Origin: Alphaproteobacteria bacterium | Lineage (GTDB): Bacteria > Pseudomonadota > Alphaproteobacteria > Reyranellales > Reyranellaceae | Direction of reading: 5' to 3' | DNA length: 59,786 nucleotides | Assembly: GCA_016869975.1 (NCBI GenBank) | Contig: VGCZ01000031.1 | Span: 1 to 59,786, forward strand | Shown here: piece after piece, positions 6,371 through 56,368 of the stretch | How positions within the stretch are numbered: position 1 is the stretch's first letter | Layout of the letters: the number at the start of each line of letters is the position of its first letter | Notes under the pieces: model-generated | What the model was told of the DNA's origin: nothing | Seen by the model: only the letters and a program-made list of their open reading frames with translations | Database searches by the model: none | Made by a program: the position numbers and the translations under genes

Positions 6371-8791
6371 TCACGCCGCCTGGACGAAGCTGTCGAGGAC
6401 CTTCTTCGGGCCGGCCTTCTCGAACTCGACGTCGAGCTTGTTGCCGTCGATGGCGGTGATCAGGCCATAGCCGAATTTCTGGTGGAAGACGCGCTGGCCG
6501 ACCGACAACGAATCGGCGGGGCGGTCGCCTTGCGCGCGGCGGTCGTCGAAGGTGTCCTCGCGGCCGAAGCGACCGCGCTGGAACTGGCCGCGGCCGCTAC
6601 CCGCGCCGCGCGTGGCGCCGCCGATCTGGCGCGCGCGCTTCCAGTCCGGACCCCAGTCGACGCTGTCGACGTCGACGTCGGTCATGCCCGAGCCGCCGCG
6701 TAACCCGCCGAAATGGCCGGTGGAGGCGGTGCCGTAGAGCCCGGCGTCGCTCGACGCGTCGACATGCGCCTCCGGCAATTCGTGCACGAAGCGCGAGGGG
6801 ATCGCGGCCTGCCACTGGTTGAAGACGCGGCGGTTGGCGGCGAAGGAGATATAGACCCGCTTGCGCGCGCGCGTGATGCCGACATAGGCGAGACGCCGCT
6901 CTTCTTCCAAGCCTGACAGCCCGCTCTCGTCGAGCGCGCGCTGGTTGGGGAACAGGCCTTCCTCCCAGCCCGGCAGGAAGACGGTGTCGAACTCCAACCC
7001 CTTCGCCGCGTGCAGGGTCATGATGTTGACCATGTCGCCGCCGGCCTTCTCGTTACCCTCGGTGACCAGCGCCACGTGCTCGAGGAAGCCTGACAGCGTG
7101 TCGAACTCCTCCATGGCGTTGACCAGCTCCTTGAGGTTCTCGAGCCGGCCCGGCGCCTCGGGCGAGCGGTCGCGCTGCAGCATATCGGTGTAACCGGATT
7201 CATCGAGCACGGTCGCGGCGACGTCGAAGTGCGGGATGCCCTCGAGCATGCCGCGCCAGCGTTCGAAGCTCTTGACCAGATCACCGAGCGTCTTGCGCTG
7301 CTTGGCCTTGAACTCGTCGGTCTCCAGGGCGCGCCGGGCCGCCTCGAAGAGGCTGACGCGCTGCGTCTTGCCGATGTCGCGCAGGGTCTTCAGCGCCGAT
7401 TCGCCCAGCCCGCGTCGCGGCACGTTGTAGATGCGCTCGAAGGCGAGGTCGTCGTCGGGCTGCGCGATGATGCGCAGGTAGGCCATCGCGTCGCGGATCT
7501 CCTGGCGCTCGTAGAAGCGCGGGCCGCCGATCACCTTGTAGGGCAGGCCGAGCGTGATGAAACGTTCCTCGAACTCGCGCGTCTGGAAGCCGGCGCGCAC
7601 CAGGATGGCGATCTGCGACAGCGCGTGCTTCTCGCGTTGCAGCGCCTCGATTTCCTCGCCGATGGCGCGCGCTTCCTCGTCGCCGTCCCACACGCCGCGC
7701 AGGCGGACCTTGTCGCCCTCGGCCATGTCGGTCCACAGCGTCTTGCCCAGGCGGCCCTCGTTGTGGGCGATAACGTGGCTGGCGGCGGCGAGGATATGCG
7801 GCGTGCTGCGGTAGTTGCGCTCCAGGCGGACGATGGTGGCGCCGGGGAAGTCCTTCTCGAAGCGCAGGATGTTGCCGACCTCCGCGCCGCGCCAGCCATA
7901 GATCGACTGGTCGTCGTCGCCGACGCAGCAGATGTTGCGCTGCTGATCGCCGCCCTGCCCGCAGACGCCCTGCGCCAGCAATCGCAGCCACAGATACTGC
8001 GCCACGTTGGTGTCCTGGTACTCGTCGACCAGGATGTAGCGGAAGCGCCGGTGGTAGTCGGCGAGGATGTCAGGGTGCTGCTGGAACAAGGTCACGCAAT
8101 GCAGGACGAGGTCGCCGAAATCGGCGGCGTTGAGCTGCGCCAGACGCTCCTGATACTGCTTGTAGATGTCGACGGCGCGGCCGTTGGCGAATTCCGCCTC
8201 GTCATCGTGGTTGCCGACCTTGTCGGGCGTCAGCGCGCGATCCTTCCAGCGCTGGATCACGCCGCTGAGCACGCGCGCCGGAAACTTCTTGTCGTCGATG
8301 CCCTCGACCTCCATCAGCTGCTTGAGCAGCCGCACCTGATCGTCGGTGTCGAGGATGGTGAAGTTGCTCTTCAGCCCCACCAGCTCGGCGTGGCGACGCA
8401 GGATGCGCACGCCGATGGAGTGGAAAGTCCCGAGCCACAGCCCGTCGGCGGCGTGGCCGATCAGCTGACCGACGCGGTCGAGCATCTCCCGCGCCGCCTT
8501 GTTGGTGAAGGTCACCGCCAGGATCTGGCTGGGAAAGGCTTTGCGCATGATCAGGATGTGGGCGATGCGGGTGATCAGCACGCGCGTCTTGCCGGTGCCG
8601 GCGCCGGCCAGCACCAGCAGCGGGCCTTCGGTGTGCTCGACCGCCTGGCGCTGGGTCTCGTTGAGCTTGCCGAGATGGTCGACGGTGGCGGGCATCGGAG
8701 GCGGCGGTGCGGGCACGATACCGCGGCGGCGCGCTCCGGGCTGCGGGCCTGCGTCCTCCGGCTCGTCGGTCAACTCGAAGGGATCGGACAT
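6371..8791 (-). CDS. uvrD: ATP-dependent DNA helicase UvrD/PcrA
   Basis: An 806-residue superfamily 1A 3'-5' helicase for nucleotide excision and mismatch repair. Visible motifs: the Q-motif region LNETQRQAV, Walker A AGAGTGKT (62-69), motif Ia TFTNKAA, motif II VDEYQDTN, motif III DDQSIYGWRGA, motif IV LERNYRS, motif V TLHAAKGLEF and motif VI YVGITRAR. The C-terminal segment (FGYGLITAIDGNKLDVEF) is the Tudor-like module that in PcrA/UvrD contacts RNA polymerase. The first 35 residues are a Pro-rich extension. A TATACG hexamer lies about 9-14 bases before the ATG, suggesting a very short leader. Confidence 0.95.
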   Translation of the reverse strand: MSDPFELTDEPEDAGPQPGARRRGIVPAPPPPMPATVDHLGKLNETQRQAVEHTEGPLLVLAGAGTGKTRVLITRIAHILIMRKAFPSQILAVTFTNKAAREMLDRVGQLIGHAADGLWLGTFHSIGVRILRRHAELVGLKSNFTILDTDDQVRLLKQLMEVEGIDDKKFPARVLSGVIQRWKDRALTPDKVGNHDDEAEFANGRAVDIYKQYQERLAQLNAADFGDLVLHCVTLFQQHPDILADYHRRFRYILVDEYQDTNVAQYLWLRLLAQGVCGQGGDQQRNICCVGDDDQSIYGWRGAEVGNILRFEKDFPGATIVRLERNYRSTPHILAAASHVIAHNEGRLGKTLWTDMAEGDKVRLRGVWDGDEEARAIGEEIEALQREKHALSQIAILVRAGFQTREFEERFITLGLPYKVIGGPRFYERQEIRDAMAYLRIIAQPDDDLAFERIYNVPRRGLGESALKTLRDIGKTQRVSLFEAARRALETDEFKAKQRKTLGDLVKSFERWRGMLEGIPHFDVAATVLDESGYTDMLQRDRSPEAPGRLENLKELVNAMEEFDTLSGFLEHVALVTEGNEKAGGDMVNIMTLHAAKGLEFDTVFLPGWEEGLFPNQRALDESGLSGLEEERRLAYVGITRARKRVYISFAANRRVFNQWQAAIPSRFVHELPEAHVDASSDAGLYGTASTGHFGGLRGGSGMTDVDVDSVDWGPDWKRARQIGGATRGAGSGRGQFQRGRFGREDTFDDRRAQGDRPADSLSVGQRVFHQKFGYGLITAIDGNKLDVEFEKAGPKKVLDSFVQAA

Positions 8792-8896: not shown

Positions 8897-9727
8897 ATGC
8901 GTCCAATCCTCGTACTGGCGATCCTTTGGCTGTCGGCCGGTGTCGCGCTGGCCCAGGCGCCGGCGTCCCCGACTCCTGCGAGCCCGACTCCCGCGAGCCC
9001 GACTCCTGGGGGTAAGCCTCCGGTGGCCAAGCCGCCAGCCGGTCCGAGCTTCGATTGCACCAAGGCCACTACCGGGCGCGAGAAGGTGGTGTGCGCCAAC
9101 GCCGATCTGGCGGCGCTCGATCGCGCCCTGGCCGAGGTCTACGCCAAGGAGCGCGCGCGGCGCGACGCCGCCGGCCAGGCCGATCTGCAGCGCGAGCAGC
9201 TGCGCTGGCTAGCTGGCGTGCCCAACACCTGCGGCGTGCCCGATAGTGCCGGGCCGGAACGCTGGGCCGAGCCGCAGCGCAAATGCCTCGCCGATCTCTA
9301 TCGCGCGCGCACCACGGCGCTGGCCGGCGCCGCGACGACCACGCCGGCGTCAAGCTCGCCGCAATCGGTGATTGGCCGGTTCGCGCTCGTGTTGCCCTCG
9401 GCCGATGCCGGCGGCGGCCGCCTCACGGTCTCGCCGGCAGCCGGTGGCAAGTATCGGGTGGTGATCGAAACGGTGATCGGGCCGACGGCGCATACCTGCG
9501 CCATCGATACCTCGCAGGGCGTCATGGAAGGCGGCATGGTGCGCGTCAGTGCGCCGGCCGAAATCTACGACCGGGTCAGCGCCAGCCTGAAACCGGCGCG
9601 GTGCGAGTTCCGCATCATGAGCACGGTCGACGGCGTGAAGGTCGATGTCGGCGAATTCCAGGAAGCCTGCCGCACCTTCTGCGGCATGCGCGCCTTCTTC
9701 GACGGCAATTACAAACGGGTGAAGTGA
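8897..9727 (+). CDS. Exported protein with LprI-like (DUF1311) domain
   Basis: A 276-residue protein with a signal peptide (residues 1-19, cleavage near ALA-QA). A Pro-rich linker with three PASPT repeats (22-36) follows, then an LprI-like module around residues 52-135. The module's cysteine pattern (C54, C66, C112, C130) and the conserved LAALDRALAEVY stretch match this lysozyme-inhibitor-type family. The C-terminal ~130 residues form a second, probably beta-rich domain with three more cysteines that I do not recognise. Likely periplasmic. The real ligand is unknown; lysozyme inhibition is known for LprI but only inferred here. Confidence 0.75.
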   Translation: MRPILVLAILWLSAGVALAQAPASPTPASPTPASPTPGGKPPVAKPPAGPSFDCTKATTGREKVVCANADLAALDRALAEVYAKERARRDAAGQADLQREQLRWLAGVPNTCGVPDSAGPERWAEPQRKCLADLYRARTTALAGAATTTPASSSPQSVIGRFALVLPSADAGGGRLTVSPAAGGKYRVVIETVIGPTAHTCAIDTSQGVMEGGMVRVSAPAEIYDRVSASLKPARCEFRIMSTVDGVKVDVGEFQEACRTFCGMRAFFDGNYKRVK

Positions 9728-28120: not shown

Positions 28121-29175
28121 CAGAAGAAGCTCGCCGCTTCCATGCCCGACAAGCGCAGGGCCGGCACCAGGCTGGGGGCTCGTCGCGGCGGCAGGTCGCG
28201 CACCGCGTCGGCGATCGCCTTGATGTGCGCCGGCGTCGTGCCGCAGCAGCCGCCCACGACGTTGATCCAGCCGGCCTCGGCCCATTTGCGGACGAGCTTG
28301 GCGGTGAGCTCGGGCGGCTCGTCATAGGCGCCCATGTCGTTGGGCAGGCCGGCGTTGGGATAGACGCAGACCAGGCTGTCGACGCGACCGTTCATGTCGG
28401 CGACGTAGGGCTGCAATTCGGTGGCGCCGAAGCTGCAGTTCAGGCCCATGGTCAGCGGCCGCACATGGCGGATCGAGTGCCAGAAGGCCTCGACGGTCTG
28501 GCCCGAGAGGTTGCGGCCGGCGAGATCGGTCAAGGTCATCGAGACCATGACCGGCAGCTCCTCGTCGAGCGCTTCGGCGGCCTCGTCGGCGGCCACGAGA
28601 GCGGCCTTGGCGTTGAGCGTGTCGAACACCGTTTCCACGAGGATGAAGTCGACGCCGCCTTCGAGCAGCCCGTCGATCTGCTCGCGATAGATCGCCTTGA
28701 CCTCGTCGAAGCTCACGGCGCGGTAGCCCGGGTCGTTGACGTTGGGCGAGACCGAGAGCGTCTTGTTGGTCGGCCCCAGCGCGCCGACGACGAAGCGCGG
28801 CTTGTCGGGGTCCTTCGCGGTCCAGCGATCGGCGTGCTCGCGCGTGATCTTCGCCGCGGCGATGTTGATCTCGCGCGCCATGGTCTGGATGCCGTAGTCG
28901 CTCAGGCTGATGGCGTTGGCGTTGAAGGTGTTGGTGGCGACGATGTCGGCGCCGGCCGCGAGATAGGCGTCGCAGATCTCGCCGACGATCTCCGGCCGCG
29001 TGACGTTCAAGAGATCGTTGTCGCCCTTCTGGTCGTGATTGAAGGTCCGGCCGCCGCGGAAGCCGTCCTCGTCGAGCTTGTAGCCCTGGATCATCGAGCC
29101 ATACGGCCCGTCCTTCACCAGGATACGCTCCCGCGCGATGCGCAGCAGCAGGTCGGCTTTGTCAGCGCGGGTCAT
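28120..29175 (-). CDS. metH: Methionine synthase, homocysteine-binding subunit (MetH N-terminal part)
   Basis: A 351-residue homocysteine S-methyltransferase module equal to the first domain of MetH. It forms a barrel in which a zinc held by three cysteines activates homocysteine; the ligands are visible as NCSFG and the paired cysteines of GGCCGTTP. The product methionine is made only together with the downstream cobalamin subunit, whose start codon overlaps this stop (TGATG). It lies 109 bases after metF, with a family B repeat between them. The ATG at 29175 has only a weak ribosome binding site. Confidence 0.93.
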
Positions 29176-45783: not shown

Positions 45784-47106
45784 GTGAACCAGATTTCGCC
45801 CACCCTGCGCAACGAGCCCGAGGGTGTCAGCATCAACGCCTGGTCCTCGATCAAGGACACCTTCGGCTCGCCCAAGGTGACGCGCGCTGAGGGCGTCTAT
45901 TTCCACGACGACACCGGCAAGCGTTGGCTCGACTTCACGGCGCAGCTTTTCAACGTCAATCTGGGCCACCAGGATCGGCGCATCATCGATGCCATCAAGG
46001 CGCAGGCCGAGAAGCTCTGCTTCATCTCGCCGTTCTACCGCAACGAGCCGCGCGAGGAGCTGGCGCGGTTGCTGGCGACGGTGACGCCGGGCGATCTCAA
46101 CACCTTCTTCTTCATGAATTCCGGCACCGAGGCCAACGAGGCGGCGCTGACCTTCGCGCGCATGGTCACCGGCCGGCCCAAGGTGATGTCGCGGTATCGC
46201 TCCTATCATGGCACCGGACTGACCACGCTGGGCGTATCGGGCGATCCGCGGCGCGGCGCCAGCGCCAACAACTTCGCCAGCTCGGTGAAGTTCCCCAACC
46301 CCTACTGCTATCGCTGCACCTTCAAGCAGACCTATCCGTCCTGCGGCGTGGTCTGCGCCACCAGTATCGAGGAGCAGATCCTCGCCGAGGGGCCCGACAC
46401 GATCGCGGCGATGATCTTCGAGCCGATCACCGGCGGCAACGGGCCGATCGTGGCGCCGCCCGAGTATTACAAGATCCTGCGCCAGCTTTGCGACAAGTAC
46501 GGAATCCTGATGATCGCCGACGAGGTGATCAACGGCTTCGGCCGCACCGGCAAGTGGTTCGCCATGCAACACTACGATGTCGTGCCCGACATGATGACCG
46601 TATCCAAGGGCATCAACGGTGGCGTGCTGCCGCTGGGCGCGGTGATGATGAGCGACGCCATCGCCCGCAAATTCTCCGACCGCAGCGTGGCGATCGGCTC
46701 GACGCAGACCGGCAACCCGCTGTCCTGCGCCGCCGGCGTGGCTGCGATCTCGGCGATGATCGAGGACCACGTGGTCGACAACGCCGCGACGCGCGGCGCC
46801 TACCTGATGCGCCGCCTGAAGGAACTGGAGGCCAAGCACCGCCTGGTCGGCGAGGTGCGCGGCCTGGGCCTTCTGGCGACGCTTGAGCTGGTGAAGGACC
46901 GTGCGAGCCGTGAGCCGCTGGTGCAATGGAACGCGCCCGATCCGCTGGTCGGCCGCATCAAGGCGCTGTTCAACGAGCGCGGCGTGCAGATCCATGTGCG
47001 CTCCAACCAGATCGTGATCTCGCCGCCGCTCACCATCACTGAGGCCGAGCTCGAGGAGGGCCTGAGGGCGGTGGACGAGGTGCTGGGCATTCTTGAGGCC
47101 GGCTGA
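45784..47106 (+). CDS. Class III PLP-dependent aminotransferase
   Basis: A 440-residue fold-type I aminotransferase of the omega-amino acid:pyruvate / taurine:pyruvate type. The PLP lysine is Lys275 in TVSKGINGG. Other signatures are FMNSGTEANEAAL, YRSYHGTG, IFEPITGGNG and LMIADEVINGFGRTG. The start is GTG 45784, with GAGG nine bases upstream. An insertion with PYCYRCTFKQTYPSCG (four cysteines) is a distinctive subfamily feature. The amine donor is unknown. Confidence 0.9.
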   Translation: MNQISPTLRNEPEGVSINAWSSIKDTFGSPKVTRAEGVYFHDDTGKRWLDFTAQLFNVNLGHQDRRIIDAIKAQAEKLCFISPFYRNEPREELARLLATVTPGDLNTFFFMNSGTEANEAALTFARMVTGRPKVMSRYRSYHGTGLTTLGVSGDPRRGASANNFASSVKFPNPYCYRCTFKQTYPSCGVVCATSIEEQILAEGPDTIAAMIFEPITGGNGPIVAPPEYYKILRQLCDKYGILMIADEVINGFGRTGKWFAMQHYDVVPDMMTVSKGINGGVLPLGAVMMSDAIARKFSDRSVAIGSTQTGNPLSCAAGVAAISAMIEDHVVDNAATRGAYLMRRLKELEAKHRLVGEVRGLGLLATLELVKDRASREPLVQWNAPDPLVGRIKALFNERGVQIHVRSNQIVISPPLTITEAELEEGLRAVDEVLGILEAG

Positions 47107-47240
47107 TCATCACGAGCTTCCCCTGGTGGTCCGATGAGGGCGACCGTTGGTGGCGCGTGAGGTGATCGCCATACGCCACACTGGCGACATATTGGCGGCG
47201 TCAGTGATGAGCGATAGGGACTGGCGGTCCGGGGAAATCC

Positions 47241-48797
47241 ATGAGCCTCGATGTTGATCCGCGCGTTCTGCTGAACAAGCTAGCCTTCGGCCCGACCAAC
47301 GGCGAGCTTCAGACGATCCAGCGGGGTGGCGCGGAGGCATGGCTCCTGCGGCAGCTGACACCCGAGCCCGACGACGATTGCGCGCCGCGCATCGCGGGCG
47401 CGCAGGTTCGGGTGAAGTACGAGAGCAAGAATCCCGACGCCAAGGTCGATGAGGATCGCCCGATCGGCGTGATCGCCCAGCCGATCGAGCAGCACTGGCA
47501 GGTTGTCGAGAAGGGCGCGCCGTTTCAGGAGCGCGCGTTCTTCCGGTCCGCGGTGGCGCACGCCACGTTGATCCGCGCCGTGCACAGCCGCTGGCAGGTG
47601 CGCGAGGTGCTGTCCGACTTCTGGCACAACCATTTCAACGTCAACGCCCTGGGCGAGTCGTCTGTCGCCGTCTCGTTGCCCGCCTATGACCGCGACGTGA
47701 TCCGCCGCCATGCGCTCGGCAATTTTCGCGCGATGCTGGAAGCCGTGGCGACCAGCGCGGCGATGCAGATCTATCTCAACAACCGCAGCTCGCGCGGCGG
47801 TGCCGCGAACGAGAACTACGCGCGCGAATTGTTCGAGCTGCATACGCTCGGCCGGCCGGCATACCTGAACGCGCTCTACAACAAGTGGCGCAAGGTGCCG
47901 GGCGCGCTCGACGGCCGACCTCAGGGCTATATCGACCAGGACGTCTACGAGGCGGCCCGCGCCTTCACCGGCTGGACGATCGAGGATGGCACCGGCCTGG
48001 GTCCCGGCCGCAAGCTGCCGACGACCGGCAAGTTCATTTATCTCGAGATGTGGCACGACAACTATCAGAAGCGAATTCTCGCCACCGAATTCGAGCCCTA
48101 CCAGAAGCCCATGAGCGATGGCCTCAAGGTGCTCGATCTCGTGGCCGATCATCCGGCGACGGCGCGCTATGTCTGCGGCAAGCTTTGCCGGCGGCTGATG
48201 TCGGATGCGCCCGATGCCGCCGCGCTGTCGGCCGCCATCACGGCATGGACCGACAATCGCCGCAAGCCCGACCAGATCGCGCGAACCGTCGAGGCGATCG
48301 TGCGGTCCGACGCGTTTCGCCGGTCGGGTGGCGCCAAGATCAAGCGGCCGCTCGAACTCTATGCGTCGTTCGCGCGCGCGGTCGATATCGATGCCTCGCC
48401 AACGACCGCTCTTCTCGGCGCGCTCGACGGCAGTGGCCAGCGTCTGTTCGGCTGGGGACCGCCGACAGGCCATCCCGACGACAGCGACTACTGGCTTTCG
48501 TCCAGCATGATGCGCATGCGGTGGACGTTGCTACTCGGGCTGGCGGACGATGCGTGGAAGACCGGCGCGCCGCGACGCGCGCAAATGGTGGCCGAGAAAT
48601 CCACGCCGGAGCAGGCGGTCGACACCGCGCATCGGCTCCTGCTCGATCGCGAGGCGCCGCCCGGGGTCCATCGGGCGATCGCGGCCGGCCTCGACCTGGC
48701 GCCTGGCTCGCCGTTCAACGCGCGCAAGGATGCGCTGCCGCTGGCGCGGCGCATGCTGGCCTACTGCGCCATGACTCCCGCTTTCCAGATGAGGTAG
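47241..48797 (+). CDS. DUF1800 domain-containing protein
   Basis: A 518-residue protein with DUF1800 hallmarks: VLLNKLAFGPTNGEL at the N-terminus, LSDFWHNHFNV, the signature NENYARELFELHTLG, and YEAARAFTGWTI. No signal peptide is evident from this start (GGGGAAATCC-ATG). DUF1800 genes are commonly paired with DUF1501 genes, as here (the next gene starts three bases after this stop). Biochemical function is not established. Confidence 0.9.
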   Translation: MSLDVDPRVLLNKLAFGPTNGELQTIQRGGAEAWLLRQLTPEPDDDCAPRIAGAQVRVKYESKNPDAKVDEDRPIGVIAQPIEQHWQVVEKGAPFQERAFFRSAVAHATLIRAVHSRWQVREVLSDFWHNHFNVNALGESSVAVSLPAYDRDVIRRHALGNFRAMLEAVATSAAMQIYLNNRSSRGGAANENYARELFELHTLGRPAYLNALYNKWRKVPGALDGRPQGYIDQDVYEAARAFTGWTIEDGTGLGPGRKLPTTGKFIYLEMWHDNYQKRILATEFEPYQKPMSDGLKVLDLVADHPATARYVCGKLCRRLMSDAPDAAALSAAITAWTDNRRKPDQIARTVEAIVRSDAFRRSGGAKIKRPLELYASFARAVDIDASPTTALLGALDGSGQRLFGWGPPTGHPDDSDYWLSSSMMRMRWTLLLGLADDAWKTGAPRRAQMVAEKSTPEQAVDTAHRLLLDREAPPGVHRAIAAGLDLAPGSPFNARKDALPLARRMLAYCAMTPAFQMR

Positions 48798-48799
48798 CC

Positions 48800-50032
48800 A
48801 TGCTCGCGCGCCGCCATCTCCTCGTCGCGGCCCCTGCACTGGCGCTTGGATCGTCGGTGCGTGCCTTCGCGCAGACGGGTGCGGCCGCCCGCCCCGGGCC
48901 GGTCCTCGTCAACGTCTTCCTGCGTGGCGGCATGGATTCGCTGGGGGTTGTCGCGCCGGTCGACGACCGCGATTACGTGGCGAGTCGATCGCCTGAGCTG
49001 CGTCTGCTGACCGACGGTGACAGGCCCGCCCTGCGCCTCGATAACGCGCCGGCCGGTTTCGATTTCCGCCTGCATCCGGAAATGGCCGCCTTGCTCGATC
49101 TCTATCGCGACAAACGGTTGGCGATCATACACGCCTGCGGACTCGACAACGGCACGCGCAGCCATTTCGACGCGCAGGACCTGATCGAGCGCGGGGTCGC
49201 GAGTGGCAACGACGCCGGCCGCGTCAGGGGTGGCTGGATGACGCGCTGGCTGGCGGCGATCGGCGGCGCCACGAGTCCGGCCTTCGCCGCCAGCACGGCG
49301 GTGCCCAATGCGCTCGCCGCGCATCCCGGCACGGTCGCGGCCGCCGATCTCAGGGGCGGCATGGGCCTGCCGGGCGGCAAGCAGGCGGCGACCGTGTTGG
49401 GTCATCTCTACGATGGTCACGGCGCGTTCGAACTCGCCGCGCGACGCACCTTGCGGGGCATCGCGCTGGTGGACGGCCATCTGCGCCAGCCTGACGGCAA
49501 GGTCGCGCCCTATCAGCCGGCGGGCGGCGCGGTCTATGAAGAGACCGAGATCGGCCGCGGCCTGCAGAGCGTGGCACGGGTCATCAGGATGGATCTCGGC
49601 ATCCGTGCCTTCACCGTCGACATGGGCGGCTGGGATACGCACGACAACCAGCCGCCGCGGCTGGCCAACCTGGTCGGCCAGCTCTCGCGGGCGCTGGGCG
49701 CGTTCCATGCGGATCTGCACGATCGTCTGAACGATATCGCACTGGTGGTGATGAGCGAGTTCGGCCGCCGGCTGCGCTCCAACAGGAGCAACGGCACCGA
49801 TCACGGCCACGCGGGCGTGATGCTGATATCGGCGCGCCGGATCGCGGGCGGACGCGTGCACGGCGTATGGCCCGGTCTCTCGTCGGACGTGCTCGACAAC
49901 GCCGTCGATCTCGCCATGACAACGGACATCCGAAGCGTGCTCGCCGAGCTGATGAGCGGTCCACTGGCCACGCCGCAGGCCGTGGCGGCGGCGTTTCCGA
50001 ACTTCGCGCCCAAGAAAGTGGGTCTGGTCTAG
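48800..50032 (+). CDS. DUF1501 domain-containing exported protein
   Basis: A 410-residue protein with a Tat-like signal (MLARRHLLVAAPALALG, cleavage near AFA-Q) and a DUF1501 domain, a sulfatase/alkaline-phosphatase-like fold: LVNVFLRGGMDSLGVV, HPEMAALLDLY, AIIHACG, DMGGWDTHDNQ, and VVMSEFGRR...GTDHGHAG. It has GAGG just before the ATG and starts three bases after the DUF1800 stop. The Asp and His residues are those expected for metal binding. The pair probably acts together at the cell surface or in the periplasm; the role is unknown. Confidence 0.9.
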   Translation: MLARRHLLVAAPALALGSSVRAFAQTGAAARPGPVLVNVFLRGGMDSLGVVAPVDDRDYVASRSPELRLLTDGDRPALRLDNAPAGFDFRLHPEMAALLDLYRDKRLAIIHACGLDNGTRSHFDAQDLIERGVASGNDAGRVRGGWMTRWLAAIGGATSPAFAASTAVPNALAAHPGTVAAADLRGGMGLPGGKQAATVLGHLYDGHGAFELAARRTLRGIALVDGHLRQPDGKVAPYQPAGGAVYEETEIGRGLQSVARVIRMDLGIRAFTVDMGGWDTHDNQPPRLANLVGQLSRALGAFHADLHDRLNDIALVVMSEFGRRLRSNRSNGTDHGHAGVMLISARRIAGGRVHGVWPGLSSDVLDNAVDLAMTTDIRSVLAELMSGPLATPQAVAAAFPNFAPKKVGLV

Positions 50033-50117
50033 TCGCGAGGAGTCCGGCGTTGGCGCCGGGGCGTGATTCTTGTGCTAGATAGCCGGCGCCTGACAGAGCG
50101 AGCGCTGGGGGACCGTC

Positions 50118-51008: not shown

Positions 51009-52194
51009 CGGCGATCGCCGCGACGCCGATTGGGATCCCGCGCCGGTCATCGACTGGCTGGCGCGCGAGGGCAGGCTGCTGCCCGACGTCGTGCCGCTTG
51101 TCGACGCGCTATGCGCGCGCCTGCTGGCGACGGGCGCGCCGCTGTGGCGCCTGACCATCGGCCTGCAGACCATCCACCCGCAACTGCGCGCCATGGGCAC
51201 GGTATGGCGGCGCGACCGGCCCGCCTACGAGCAGGGCCGGCCGCACGGCATCGAGAATTCGCCGGCCTATATCGGCAGCCCGCTGTACGAGCTGGCGACC
51301 ACCGGCCGGCCGGTGCGCTATCGGCTCGACCGGCTGGCGCCGGACAACCACCCGGTGCTGCACGAGGTCGCGGCCGAGGGCGGGCGCGACTACTACGCCC
51401 TGTCGGTCGCGGTGGCGCATGGCCGTTGGCCGGCGCTGACCTTCTCGACCGACCGCGTCGAGGGCTTCAGCCAGCCCGACATCGCGAAATTCGAGCGGCT
51501 GGCGAACCATCTCGGGCCGGTGCTGGAGAGCCACCTGCACTATCGCGTCTCGACCACCTTGCTGGAGACCTATCTTGGTCGCGAGACCGCGCGGCGCATC
51601 CTCGACGGCCTGATCCGCCGGGGCGACGGCGAGGCGATCAACGCCGTGCTGTGGTTCTCCGACCTGCGCGGCTTCACCGCGCTCAACGAGCGACTGCCGC
51701 CCAACGAGATGCTGGAGCTGCTCAACAGCTATTTCGAGACCGTGGGCGACGCGCTCGCGCGGCACGGCGGCGAGATCCTGAAATTCATCGGCGACGGCGT
51801 GATGGCGATCTTCCCGGTGCTCGACGCCGGCTTCCTGCCCGACATCACCGCCGGCGCGCACGACGCGGCGCGCGAGGCGCACGCGGAGTTCGCCGAGATC
51901 AATTTTGGCCGCGCCGAGGCCGGGCGGCAGGCGATCCGCTTCGGGGTCGGCCTGCATGTCGGCATGGTGACCTTCGGCAATATCGGCACGCGCGACCGGC
52001 TCGACTTCACGGTGATCGGTCCGGCGGTCAACCGCTGCTCCCGGATGGAGGGCATGACCAAGGCGCTGGGCGTGTCGACCGTCGCCTCGTCCGAGTTCAA
52101 CGCGCTTTGCCCGCGCAAGCTGCGGCCGCTGGGCGCGCATCGCCTGCGCGGCGTGCCGCGGCCGGTCGAGCTCTACGCACCGGAATGGGCCTGA
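51001..52194 (+). CDS. Class III adenylate cyclase
   Basis: A 397-residue soluble cyclase with a helical/GAF-like N-terminal region (about 15-190) and a C-terminal class III catalytic domain (about 213-390). All catalytic residues are present: metal Asp221 (WFSDLRGFT) and Asp265 (FIGDGVM), adenine-specifying Lys261 and Asp335 (LDFTVIG), and Asn344/Arg348 (VNRCSR). It should therefore make cAMP. The GTG start overlaps the SDR gene by eight bases. The N-terminal region may sense a ligand. A CRP-like box occurs upstream of the lipid kinase at 41338. Confidence 0.9.
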   Translation: MADGDRRDADWDPAPVIDWLAREGRLLPDVVPLVDALCARLLATGAPLWRLTIGLQTIHPQLRAMGTVWRRDRPAYEQGRPHGIENSPAYIGSPLYELATTGRPVRYRLDRLAPDNHPVLHEVAAEGGRDYYALSVAVAHGRWPALTFSTDRVEGFSQPDIAKFERLANHLGPVLESHLHYRVSTTLLETYLGRETARRILDGLIRRGDGEAINAVLWFSDLRGFTALNERLPPNEMLELLNSYFETVGDALARHGGEILKFIGDGVMAIFPVLDAGFLPDITAGAHDAAREAHAEFAEINFGRAEAGRQAIRFGVGLHVGMVTFGNIGTRDRLDFTVIGPAVNRCSRMEGMTKALGVSTVASSEFNALCPRKLRPLGAHRLRGVPRPVELYAPEWA

Positions 52195-52822: not shown

Positions 52823-53011
52823 TCACGATTTCGTGTCGTCTTCCCTGGCGTGCGCCGCGTGTGCGCGCCGGGCGCGCTCCTCCTCGAGCTTGCTGGCGCG
52901 CTTCTCGGCGCCGGTCCGACCATGGATCGCCCGGTTGGCGTCGGCTTGCGCCTCGCGCTCGCGTCGCGCCTTTTGCTTGCGCGCCCGCCTCAGGTTGACA
53001 ATATCGGCCAT
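52823..53011 (-). CDS. DUF4169 family protein
   Basis: A 62-residue highly charged protein (MADIVNLRRARKQKARREREA...) matching DUF4169, a short alphaproteobacterial family usually found next to fumC and a ribbon-helix-helix gene. Here it lies 60 bases from the divergent AsmA gene, which separates it from the RHH and fumC genes at 56.4-58 kb. The reading frame continues far upstream on the minus strand, but that part is antisense to AsmA and not real. Function unknown. Confidence 0.8.
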   Translation of the reverse strand: MADIVNLRRARKQKARREREAQADANRAIHGRTGAEKRASKLEEERARRAHAAHAREDDTKS

Positions 53012-53071
53012 GTCGTATTGTCGCCGCGTTCCCCGCCTTTGATAAGGTCGAATCGTCGCGTTGAGGTCCCC

Positions 53072-56000
53072 ATGCTGAAGAAGGTCGCGATCGGGCTGGG
53101 CGCGTTCGTCGCGCTTGTTGTCGCCGCCCTGCTGGCGGCGCCCCTGCTCATCGATGCGGAGAGCTTCAAGCCGCGCATTGCCACGGCGATCCGCGACGTC
53201 ACAGGCCGCGAGCTGGCCATGACGGGACCGGTGAAGCTGCGCCTGCTGCCCTCGCCGGTGGTGTAGGCCGCCGACATCAGGCTGTCGAACATGCCGGGTG
53301 GCAAGGCGGCTTCGATGATCGAGGCCAAGTCGCTGCGCTTGGCGGTGGGTGTCTTTTCCCTGCTTGCCGGCCGGTTGGATGTATCGGAGCTGAAGCTGGT
53401 CGAGCCGCGCATCGCGCTGGAGGTCACCGCTGACGGCCGCGCCAACTATGATTTCAGCCCACCGGCGTCGCGGCAGCCAAGCGCCGCGGGCGCCGCGCCG
53501 CCGAAAGCCGCTGGCGAGGGTTACCGCATCACCGCCGAGCGCGTCGTCGTCGAGAACGGCACGGTCAGCCTGATCGACGCCCGGGCGAAGCGCGAGATAC
53601 GCCTGGAGCAGATCGCGCTCACCGCCTCGCTGCAGGGGCTGCCTGCGCCGGCGACGCTCAACGGCACAATGGTGGCCAACGGTGTCCGACTGGCGCTGGA
53701 GGTGAACCTCGCGACCCCCGATGGCGCACGCCAGCCGGTCGAGGCGGTGCTGAAGCTCGACGATGGCGATCTGCGCCTCACCGGCGCGATCGAGGATCTC
53801 GCGAAGGCGCCGCGATATGTCGGCTCGGTGAAGCTCGCAGCGGCGGATTTCGCCGGCTTCGTCACGCGCCTGGCGCGTGCGACCGGCACTCCCCCGCCCG
53901 AGCTGCCGCCGGCGCTGGCGCGCAAGGTGGCGTACGAGGGCGGTCTCGACGCATCGGCGGCGGCGATCGTCGCGCGCGACTTCAAGCTCGGCTTTGGGGA
54001 GGACTCCGGCGCAGGGTCGCTGTCGGTGGCGCTCTCGCCGTTGAAAATTGACGGCAAGCTGAACTTCACCCGGCTCGATCTCGACAAGTGGATGGCCGCC
54101 GCGCCGACGACGCCGACCGCCGCGCCGGCGCCCGGCAAGCCCGCGCCGAGACCTGCGGCTCAGCCCGTCGGCGTGCCGGCCGATCTGGCGCTGAAGCTCG
54201 ACCTGCGCGCCACCGAGATCGTCTACGGCGGCCGTGGGGTGAAGGATTTCGTAGTCGACGTGGAGTTGGCGCAAGGCAGCCTGTCGGTGCGCAAATTGGC
54301 GGCGATCTTGCCGGGCGGCACCAGGCTCGACGCGTCGAGCAGCGCGCAGGGCAAGGCGCATCGCGGCACCATCAGCCTCGACGGCGAGAAGCTGCGCGAG
54401 CTGCTGACCTGGCTCAAGGTCGATGTCGCGTCGGTGCCGCAGAGCAAGCTCGGCGCTTTCTCGCTCAAGGGCACGCTCGCCGGCAGCGGCCTCGACACTC
54501 TTTCCATCTCCGACGCCACGGCGCAGCTCGACGGCACCAGCATGAAAGGCGCGCTGACCGTGGCGCTCAAGGCGCCACCGGCCATCACCCTCGAAGTGCA
54601 GGCCGATGCGCTTGACCTGGATGCCTGGCTGCCGAAGCAAGCCGACGCCGCGCGACCCGCGGCCAAGGGAGCGGCGCCCCAACCGGCAGCCCCCGCCGAC
54701 CTGTCGGGCGTCGACGCACGCGTGAAGGCGAAAATCGGGCGACTGACCTATGGCGGCGAGCGCCTCGATGGCGTCGATGCCGACGTCACGCTGCGCGGCG
54801 GCCGATTGACGATCGCCGACGCGCGCATCGCCGGGATCGCTGGCGGCTCGCTGGGCCTGAAGGGCAGCGTCGCCAATCTCGGCGCGGCCCCCGTCTTCGA
54901 CCTCAATATCGGGGCGCAGAACGTCAACGTGGAGCGCCTGGCGAAGCTGGCGCACCAGCCGCCGCCGACCAAGGCGCCGATCGGCGCGCTCACGGTCCAG
55001 GGCGGCATCGCCGGCACGGCGAACGATCTCACGATGCGCGACCTGCAGATCGCCGCGCTGGGCAGCCAGCTGCGCCTGACCGGCAAGCTGGCGCTGCAAC
55101 ATGGCGGGCCGCGCTATGATTTCAGCGCCTTCTCCCTGCGCACCGACGATCTCGGCAGACTCTTCGCCGCGATCGGCCAGGATCCACCGGGCGTCACGGG
55201 CGACATCAGCGCCGCCGGCGCGCTGCAGGGCGATCCCAAGGTCGTGTCCTATCGCGGCAATTTCGCGCTCAAGGGCATTCAGGCGCAGGGCTCGGTGCGG
55301 GTCGATATCGCGGCGGTACCGCGGATCACCGCCGATCTGCGCGTCGGCGATCTCGACATCGAGAAACTCATCGGCGGCGGTGCGGCCGGCCCGGCCGCGG
55401 CTAGCGCTGGCGGTGGTGGCGGGCGTCATTCGCGCGCGCCGATCGATCTGTCGCCGCTGAAGGCGCTCGACGGCCAGTTCAAGCTGGTGGCCGCCACCCT
55501 GCAGAAAGGCGTATGGCGGCTGGAGAACGCCCAGCTCGAGGCGTCGCTGAAGGGCGGGGTGCTGACCATCGCGCGCCTCAACGGCGGCTTCTATGGCGGC
55601 GCGCTCGATCTCACCGGCAAGGTCGACGGCGCGCGCGCGCCGGGGCACCTCGATGCGCGCGTGAGTGCGGCCAACGTCAATCTCGGGCGTTTCGTGCCGG
55701 CGGTCGTGGGGTCCAATCGTATCGGCGGCGTGATGAACGCCAACGTCGCCTTCAACGCCTCGCTCGCCAGCGTCCATGATTTCGTCAGCACGGTGGACGC
55801 CGACGGCAAGATCAACGGCACGGTGCGTTTCAACGTCACCGACGCCGAGCGCATCGCCGGCCAGGCGGTCGGCGTGGTCGGCGGCGCGGCCACGCAAGGC
55901 GCCGCCGGCGTGCTGCGCGACATCACCGGCCCTGTCATCGGCGGCCTCGCGCGCGGCGCCGGCGACACCGTGGAGGGCCTGGGCCTCGCGGTGCGCATCG

Positions 56001-56368
56001 CCATGGATCGCTTCGTCGGCCGCAACGCGCCGATGAGCGGCGATATCACCGTGCGCGATGGCGTGCTGAGCACGAACAACACACGCGTCGACGGCGAGCG
56101 CGCCTGGGCGATGGTCGTGGCCAACATCAACCTGCCGGCCTGGACACAGGACACGACGCTCAACGTCTTCGTGCAGGAGGATCCGAGCCGGCCGGCCGTC
56201 ACGGTGCGCCAGACCGGCAGCGTCGACAATCCGCGTCGCGCGATCGCCACCAGCGGTGCCGGCGCGCCGCAGCAGCAGCAGCCACCGCAGCAGCAAGCGC
56301 CACCGCAACAGCGACCGAGCCCGGTCCCAGGGCCGGTGCGCGATATCCTGAAGGGGCTCGGCCGCTAA
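53072..56368 (+). pseudogene. AsmA family protein, interrupted by an in-frame TAG
   Basis: AsmA-type envelope protein, 1099 codons including both stops, predicted to be anchored by an N-terminal membrane segment (residues 5-27) with a large beta-rich periplasmic part linked to lipid transport or outer-membrane assembly. ATG 53072 has GAGG upstream. Codon 65 is TAG (53264-53266), between LLPSPVV and AADIRLSNMPGG, a stretch that is continuous in AsmA proteins. Both sides are in the same frame and the downstream 1033 codons are intact. This is either a recent nonsense mutation, a sequence error, or readthrough. A restart at ATG 53291 would lack the membrane anchor. The C-terminus is Gln/Pro-rich. 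Confidence 0.85.

Follow-up and report, generated by a model that had tools for sequence, protein, structure and literature searches.

Proteins of the AsmA-like superfamily, among them AsmA, YhdP, TamB and YdbH, are described in Escherichia coli, where an N-terminal helix is predicted to anchor all six members and where YhdP, TamB and YdbH stand in for one another (PMC8593681). Single deletions of asmA, tamB or yhdP in the same bacterium increase outer-membrane permeability only slightly (PMC8593681). Readthrough of the amber codon UAG is reported at 0.01% in Pseudomonas putida and at 1 in 20,000 in Pseudomonas aeruginosa, and in E. coli it lies approximately 500-fold below the 12% given for UGA (PMC9481147). 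According to reporter assays in E. coli, a G directly after the stop codon and a downstream sequence high in G and low in T favour readthrough (PMC11126739). Here we describe an AsmA-family gene that is interrupted by a single amber codon, and weigh what this codon might mean.

The window, by which we denote the whole stretch of DNA analysed, is the entire contig 31 (59,786 bases); the draft genome, that of a bacterium related to Reyranella, comprises 4.84 Mb in 96 contigs. Its interrupted frame begins with ATG at 53072 and ends with TAA at 56366–56368, and the TAG is in phase with both (Table 1). Translated with X at the stop, the frame has 1098 residues and is interrupted internally only at residue 65, which bears out the original prediction of an in-frame amber codon at this position of an AsmA gene. 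Frame translation of the 1033 codons past the TAG revealed no second internal stop, as had also been claimed. A hydrophobic segment, recognized by eye in the translation at approximately residues 4–27, lies upstream of the stop; the sequence thus fits the proposal that without its first part the protein would lose its membrane anchor.

Table 1. Features of the interrupted AsmA-family gene (positions in the window).
Feature	Position	Strand	Basis
AsmA-family (PF05170) gene, 1098-codon frame from ATG to TAA, one interruption	53072..56368	+	translation, Pfam, relatives
64 codons 5' of the stop, with N-terminal hydrophobic segment and start of the AsmA match	53072..53263	+	segment by eye; Pfam
In-frame TAG, codon 65; sense codon in 29/29 relatives read	53264..53266	+	sequence, relatives' loci
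1033 codons and TAA past the stop, open; dN/dS with the closest congener (G001) 0.123	53267..56368	+	translation, dN/dS
First in-frame ATG past the stop (codon 74), most obvious re-start; 1025-aa product without the N-terminal segment	53291..53293	+	sequence, relatives

The whole frame matched the Pfam AsmA profile PF05170 with 143.7 bits (cut-off 29.8). Scored separately, the 64-residue piece before the stop reached 34.5 bits against the same cut-off, and the piece from codon 74 onwards reached 86.1 bits. The best match of the X-read frame (residues 3–179) crosses the stop, so that the AsmA sequence is indeed continuous across the TAG, as predicted. By contrast with Pfam, two NCBIfam models remained far below their cut-offs, namely the E. 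coli AsmA equivalog NF008091 (96.2 bits; cut-off 412) and the YhdP family TIGR02099 (46.5 bits; cut-off 519.15). On these profile scores, therefore, the interrupted gene is classed as encoding an AsmA-family protein that is neither E. coli AsmA nor YhdP proper. On the opposite strand, an open frame of 1161 aa (52823–56308, minus) runs over the AsmA gene. It was rejected as a real gene, since the congener G003 has several separate frames in its place and conservation is higher for the AsmA frame; it is probably a by-product of the 70% G+C content.

Sixty-one genomes, the window's own among them, were searched with the protein, and 52 gave a match; the nine named relatives matched by protein comprise Reyranella, Reyranellaceae and other alphaproteobacteria. 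The codon at the place of the TAG was read in the 29 relatives for which the locus was retrieved, three of them (L020, L036 and L038) being distant, approximately 31–33% identical, and possibly paralogues. All 29 carry a sense codon at this place, which by hand tally encodes Ser in 20, Thr in five, Glu in two and Gly in two. The nearest relatives, G001 (91% identical) and G003 (83%), belong to the same genus as the source genome and their copies are intact; a third congener, G002, for which the assembly is 67% complete, gave a distant match only. Apart from the TAG, the AsmA frame is open in the source genome, G001 and G003, its lengths differing by whole codons only. Among the matches listed there was no other internal TAG, and three contained one TGA each. 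The sequence flanking the stop is collinear with both G001 and G003, and a misjoin at the stop was discarded on this ground. Elsewhere in the window, approximately 3 kb (~47,088–50,064) lack a counterpart in the collinear region of G001 and in that of G003 and were either gained here or lost there. The comparison with relatives, which the original prediction had proposed as a check, fits a recent pseudogene and an error alike.

Against G001, the AsmA gene showed a dS of 0.337 and a dN of 0.044 (dN/dS 0.131); dN/dS was 0.28 before the stop, where it rests on 64 codons only, and as listed in Table 1 beyond it. With G003 as the outgroup, 101 synonymous and 47 nonsynonymous changes fell on the branch of the source genome and 104 and 40, respectively, on that of G001 (Fisher p 0.52). 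Purifying selection acts on the gene both before and after the stop, with no excess of amino-acid change on the source lineage. Neither these values nor the branch counts revealed relaxed selection in the AsmA gene, and no second lesion was seen in it. Since the relatives have sense codons, the constraint is unrelaxed and the branch shows no excess, the TAG is either derived and too young for decay to have followed, that is, very recent, or an error. Because relaxation of selection is not visible, nothing independent of the stop shows the gene to be dead; the lack of relaxation or of a second lesion is, at the same time, what is expected for a very recent nonsense change. Single changes in the sense codons of this gene produce a stop in 1.9% of cases (186 of 9,873), and one such change is therefore unremarkable.

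How common internal stops are in the assembly was judged from alignments with frames of G003. In the window, 39 coding-like frames (16,580 codons) were aligned and seven internal stops were flagged in four of them. The AsmA TAG is accompanied by 16/20 and 19/20 identical residues beside it and is not overlapped by a better open frame. The remaining six are located in or beside poorly aligned frame starts, and a better-conserved open frame also lies opposite two of these. One extra stop (30763), flagged when the coding filter was omitted, is covered by two open frames of 92% identity. In the 39 window frames, the AsmA TAG alone is convincing as an internal stop. On contig C2, where 115 frames (41,852 codons) were aligned, ten stops were flagged in eight frames. 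Three were in one frame, and for two of these a 94%-identical open frame runs opposite; those at 87955, 114872 and 167709 fall at frame ends, whereas the stops at 28517 and 150626 have an opposite frame that is free of stops at like identity. Two TGA codons on C2 have no better open frame and are candidate lesions or errors. The one at 48651 (minus strand), flanked by 20/20 and 15/20 identical residues, may alternatively not be in a gene at all; of a 298-aa congener frame, only the first 119 residues align with the stretch, at 80% identity. The other, at 51654, lies within a decayed remnant (~51,498–51,760) of a 155-aa congener frame, with the start missing, one stop and one frame change. Alignment in the other direction, with frames of the source genome on G003, gave raw counts of nine and twelve flagged stops. 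Clean internal stops are rare in the source genome, but the AsmA TAG need not be alone.

The reading that we prefer, with a probability of roughly 0.6, is that the TAG is a real, recent nonsense (null) allele of an inner-membrane-anchored envelope gene. A recent single-base change would have created the stop in this AsmA-family gene; translation would start at the ATG at 53072 and be terminated by release factor RF1 at codon 65. The only product would be a 64-residue peptide that carries the anchor, and the large periplasmic body would be lost, apart from traces. The loss would be borne through redundancy within the superfamily, other members of which are still open in the source genome: a second AsmA gene on contig C7 (700 aa) and a YhdP-like gene on contig C29 (1066 aa). 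We infer that the cells themselves carry this base and do not make the protein, that the hydrophobic segment anchors it and that redundancy makes its loss tolerable. A real null allele is favoured because the superfamily is redundant, because tamA-tamB is apparently deleted as well and because the YhdP-like and second AsmA genes remain open; along with this apparent deletion on contig C6, the decayed remnant of the 155-aa frame on C2 was counted in its support as other gene loss in the source genome.

The TamB profile, which matches both congeners, had no match in the source genome, and a search with the congener's protein as query, itself lacking a positive control of its own, found none there. 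In the congeners, tamB stands beside a tamA-like gene (1438 and 616 aa in G003, 1435 and 617 aa in G001); profiles support both genes of G003 (TamB; Omp85 and POTRA) and the tamB of G001. The sequences that flank this pair are approximately 66 bases apart inside contig C6 of the source genome, at ~78.2 kb (G000:C6 ~78,213–78,279; L135 reversed, 7721–7787), while between the same flanks there are 7.8 kb in G003 and 6.4 kb in G001. The absence looks like a lineage-specific deletion rather than a contig gap, albeit a misassembly is possible. Should the stop be real, the lineage would have dispensed with two AsmA-like superfamily members, TamB through the tamA-tamB deletion and the window gene through the stop, and, having kept the YhdP-like and the smaller AsmA gene, it would offer a natural experiment beyond E. 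coli and Pseudomonas on how many lipid bridges of this kind a cell requires. We regard the apparent tamA-tamB loss as a more interesting by-product than the AsmA stop itself, although its interest is modest.

Copies of a dispersed repeat were noticed beside the tamA-tamB place in G003. Dispersed elements of approximately 50–150 bases match many contigs of the source genome at 70–98%, many of them on both strands; they are inverted or palindromic repeats common to species of the genus (L107 4911–5032 and 5775–5904; L134 ~7825–7936 and 9241–9290).

Ranking second, and to be taken seriously even if we think it less probable than a real null allele, is an error: a wrong base in the assembly, or a variant of a minority strain that entered the consensus, the gene being intact in most or all cells. 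A base error would also have this appearance: one substitution within an otherwise intact and constrained gene, in a single draft assembly of 96 contigs. The draft also lacks a detected RF2, and tRNA-Phe and others are missing from its 43 tRNA hits. The low rate of internal stops (one convincing in the 39 window frames, and two candidates and two equivocal sites, 28517 and 150626, in the 115 frames of C2) could also result from scattered errors. On the other hand, none of the 39 window frames had an alignment flagged as split by a frame change, and the collinear flanks bear no sign of a misjoin at the stop. Of the three options offered by the original prediction, a recent pseudogene and a sequencing or assembly error retain almost all of the probability, and the third, programmed readthrough of TAG, did not find support.

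That leaky or programmed readthrough yields useful amounts of full-length protein is very improbable, and together with re-initiation it falls far behind the two readings above. It would accommodate the unrelaxed selection past the stop; the base after the TAG is a G followed by G+C-rich sequence, which resembles the context found permissive in E. coli, and the residue at this place differs between relatives (Ser, Thr, Glu or Gly). Against it, the stop is conserved in 0/29 relatives, the UAG readthrough measured in P. putida and P. aeruginosa is very low, and the RNA around the stop (106 bases) gives no clear folding signal, with a z of -1.54 and 15 of 200 shuffles folding as stably. RF1 (TIGR00019) is present, the match (506.9 bits) extending over profile positions 7–359 of 361. 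The search for a suppressor tRNA, another check that had been proposed, gave a partial answer: none of the 43 tRNA hits, 42 of which were named by ARAGORN, has a CTA anticodon, and the anticodon loop of the 43rd (29.1 bits, no ARAGORN call) does not read CTA by eye, but tRNA-Phe, essential to the cell, is not among the 43 either, and since essential tRNAs are missing the absence of a suppressor is unproven.

TAG moreover ends other genes in this genome. It is the stop where the congener's frame also stops in 2/34 frames in the window and in 28/94 in contig C2, counts that are rough since codon-position G+C served to select the frames and some on the opposite strand are among them. Since RF1 is present and TAG acts as a terminator, reassignment of TAG in the host was dismissed. 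RF2 (prfB) was not found in the assembly, although the completeness is given as 100. Its absence was considered as a sign of an altered code and rejected. It is compatible with a contig gap, since the left end of contig C45 begins approximately 2.2 kb from the place of prfB in G003 (L107 6014–7030), the other flank giving no match at high identity; frames that end where the congener's do also use TGA more often than any other stop. An unusual genetic code or termination machinery is not supported, there being no sign of either. A tRNA-SeC with a tca anticodon is encoded at G000:C16:93671-93761 (L100); the organism may make selenoproteins, and some in-frame TGA codons could then be sense.

A more elaborate version, in which the TAG acts as a leaky or conditional switch and readthrough in the permissive G-rich context supplies a low, regulated amount of a lipid-bridge protein in a lineage that is also without TamA-TamB, strikes us as slightly more far-fetched still. 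Least probable of all is a re-start at the ATG 24 bases past the stop giving a working product: this close in-frame ATG is also ATG in both congeners and is preceded, by eye, by AGG nine bases upstream, yet the codon 74 place is ATG in only 7/29 relatives and the product would be without the hydrophobic segment and the beginning of the domain, whereas the E. coli AsmA-like proteins are predicted to be N-terminally anchored.

Set beside known systems, the window gene resembles the AsmA family (PF05170) in its profile match, its N-terminal hydrophobic segment and its large body, and departs from E. coli AsmA and YhdP in scoring below the NCBIfam cut-offs and in being interrupted at codon 65. With described cases of stop-codon recoding, whether by suppressor tRNA, TAG reassignment or programmed readthrough, it shares an in-frame TAG within a constrained frame; unlike them, it has a stop that is not conserved, in a genome with RF1, with no CTA tRNA found and with TAG serving as a terminator. 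From recent nonsense pseudogenes and null alleles of bacteria no difference was seen, the base in the window being known from the assembly alone. With such alleles it has in common the one stop, the absence of other decay and the intact orthologues in congeners. It is an ordinary finding, a single stop in one draft genome, and most likely a very recent loss-of-function change or a base error, not a new reading of the genetic code.
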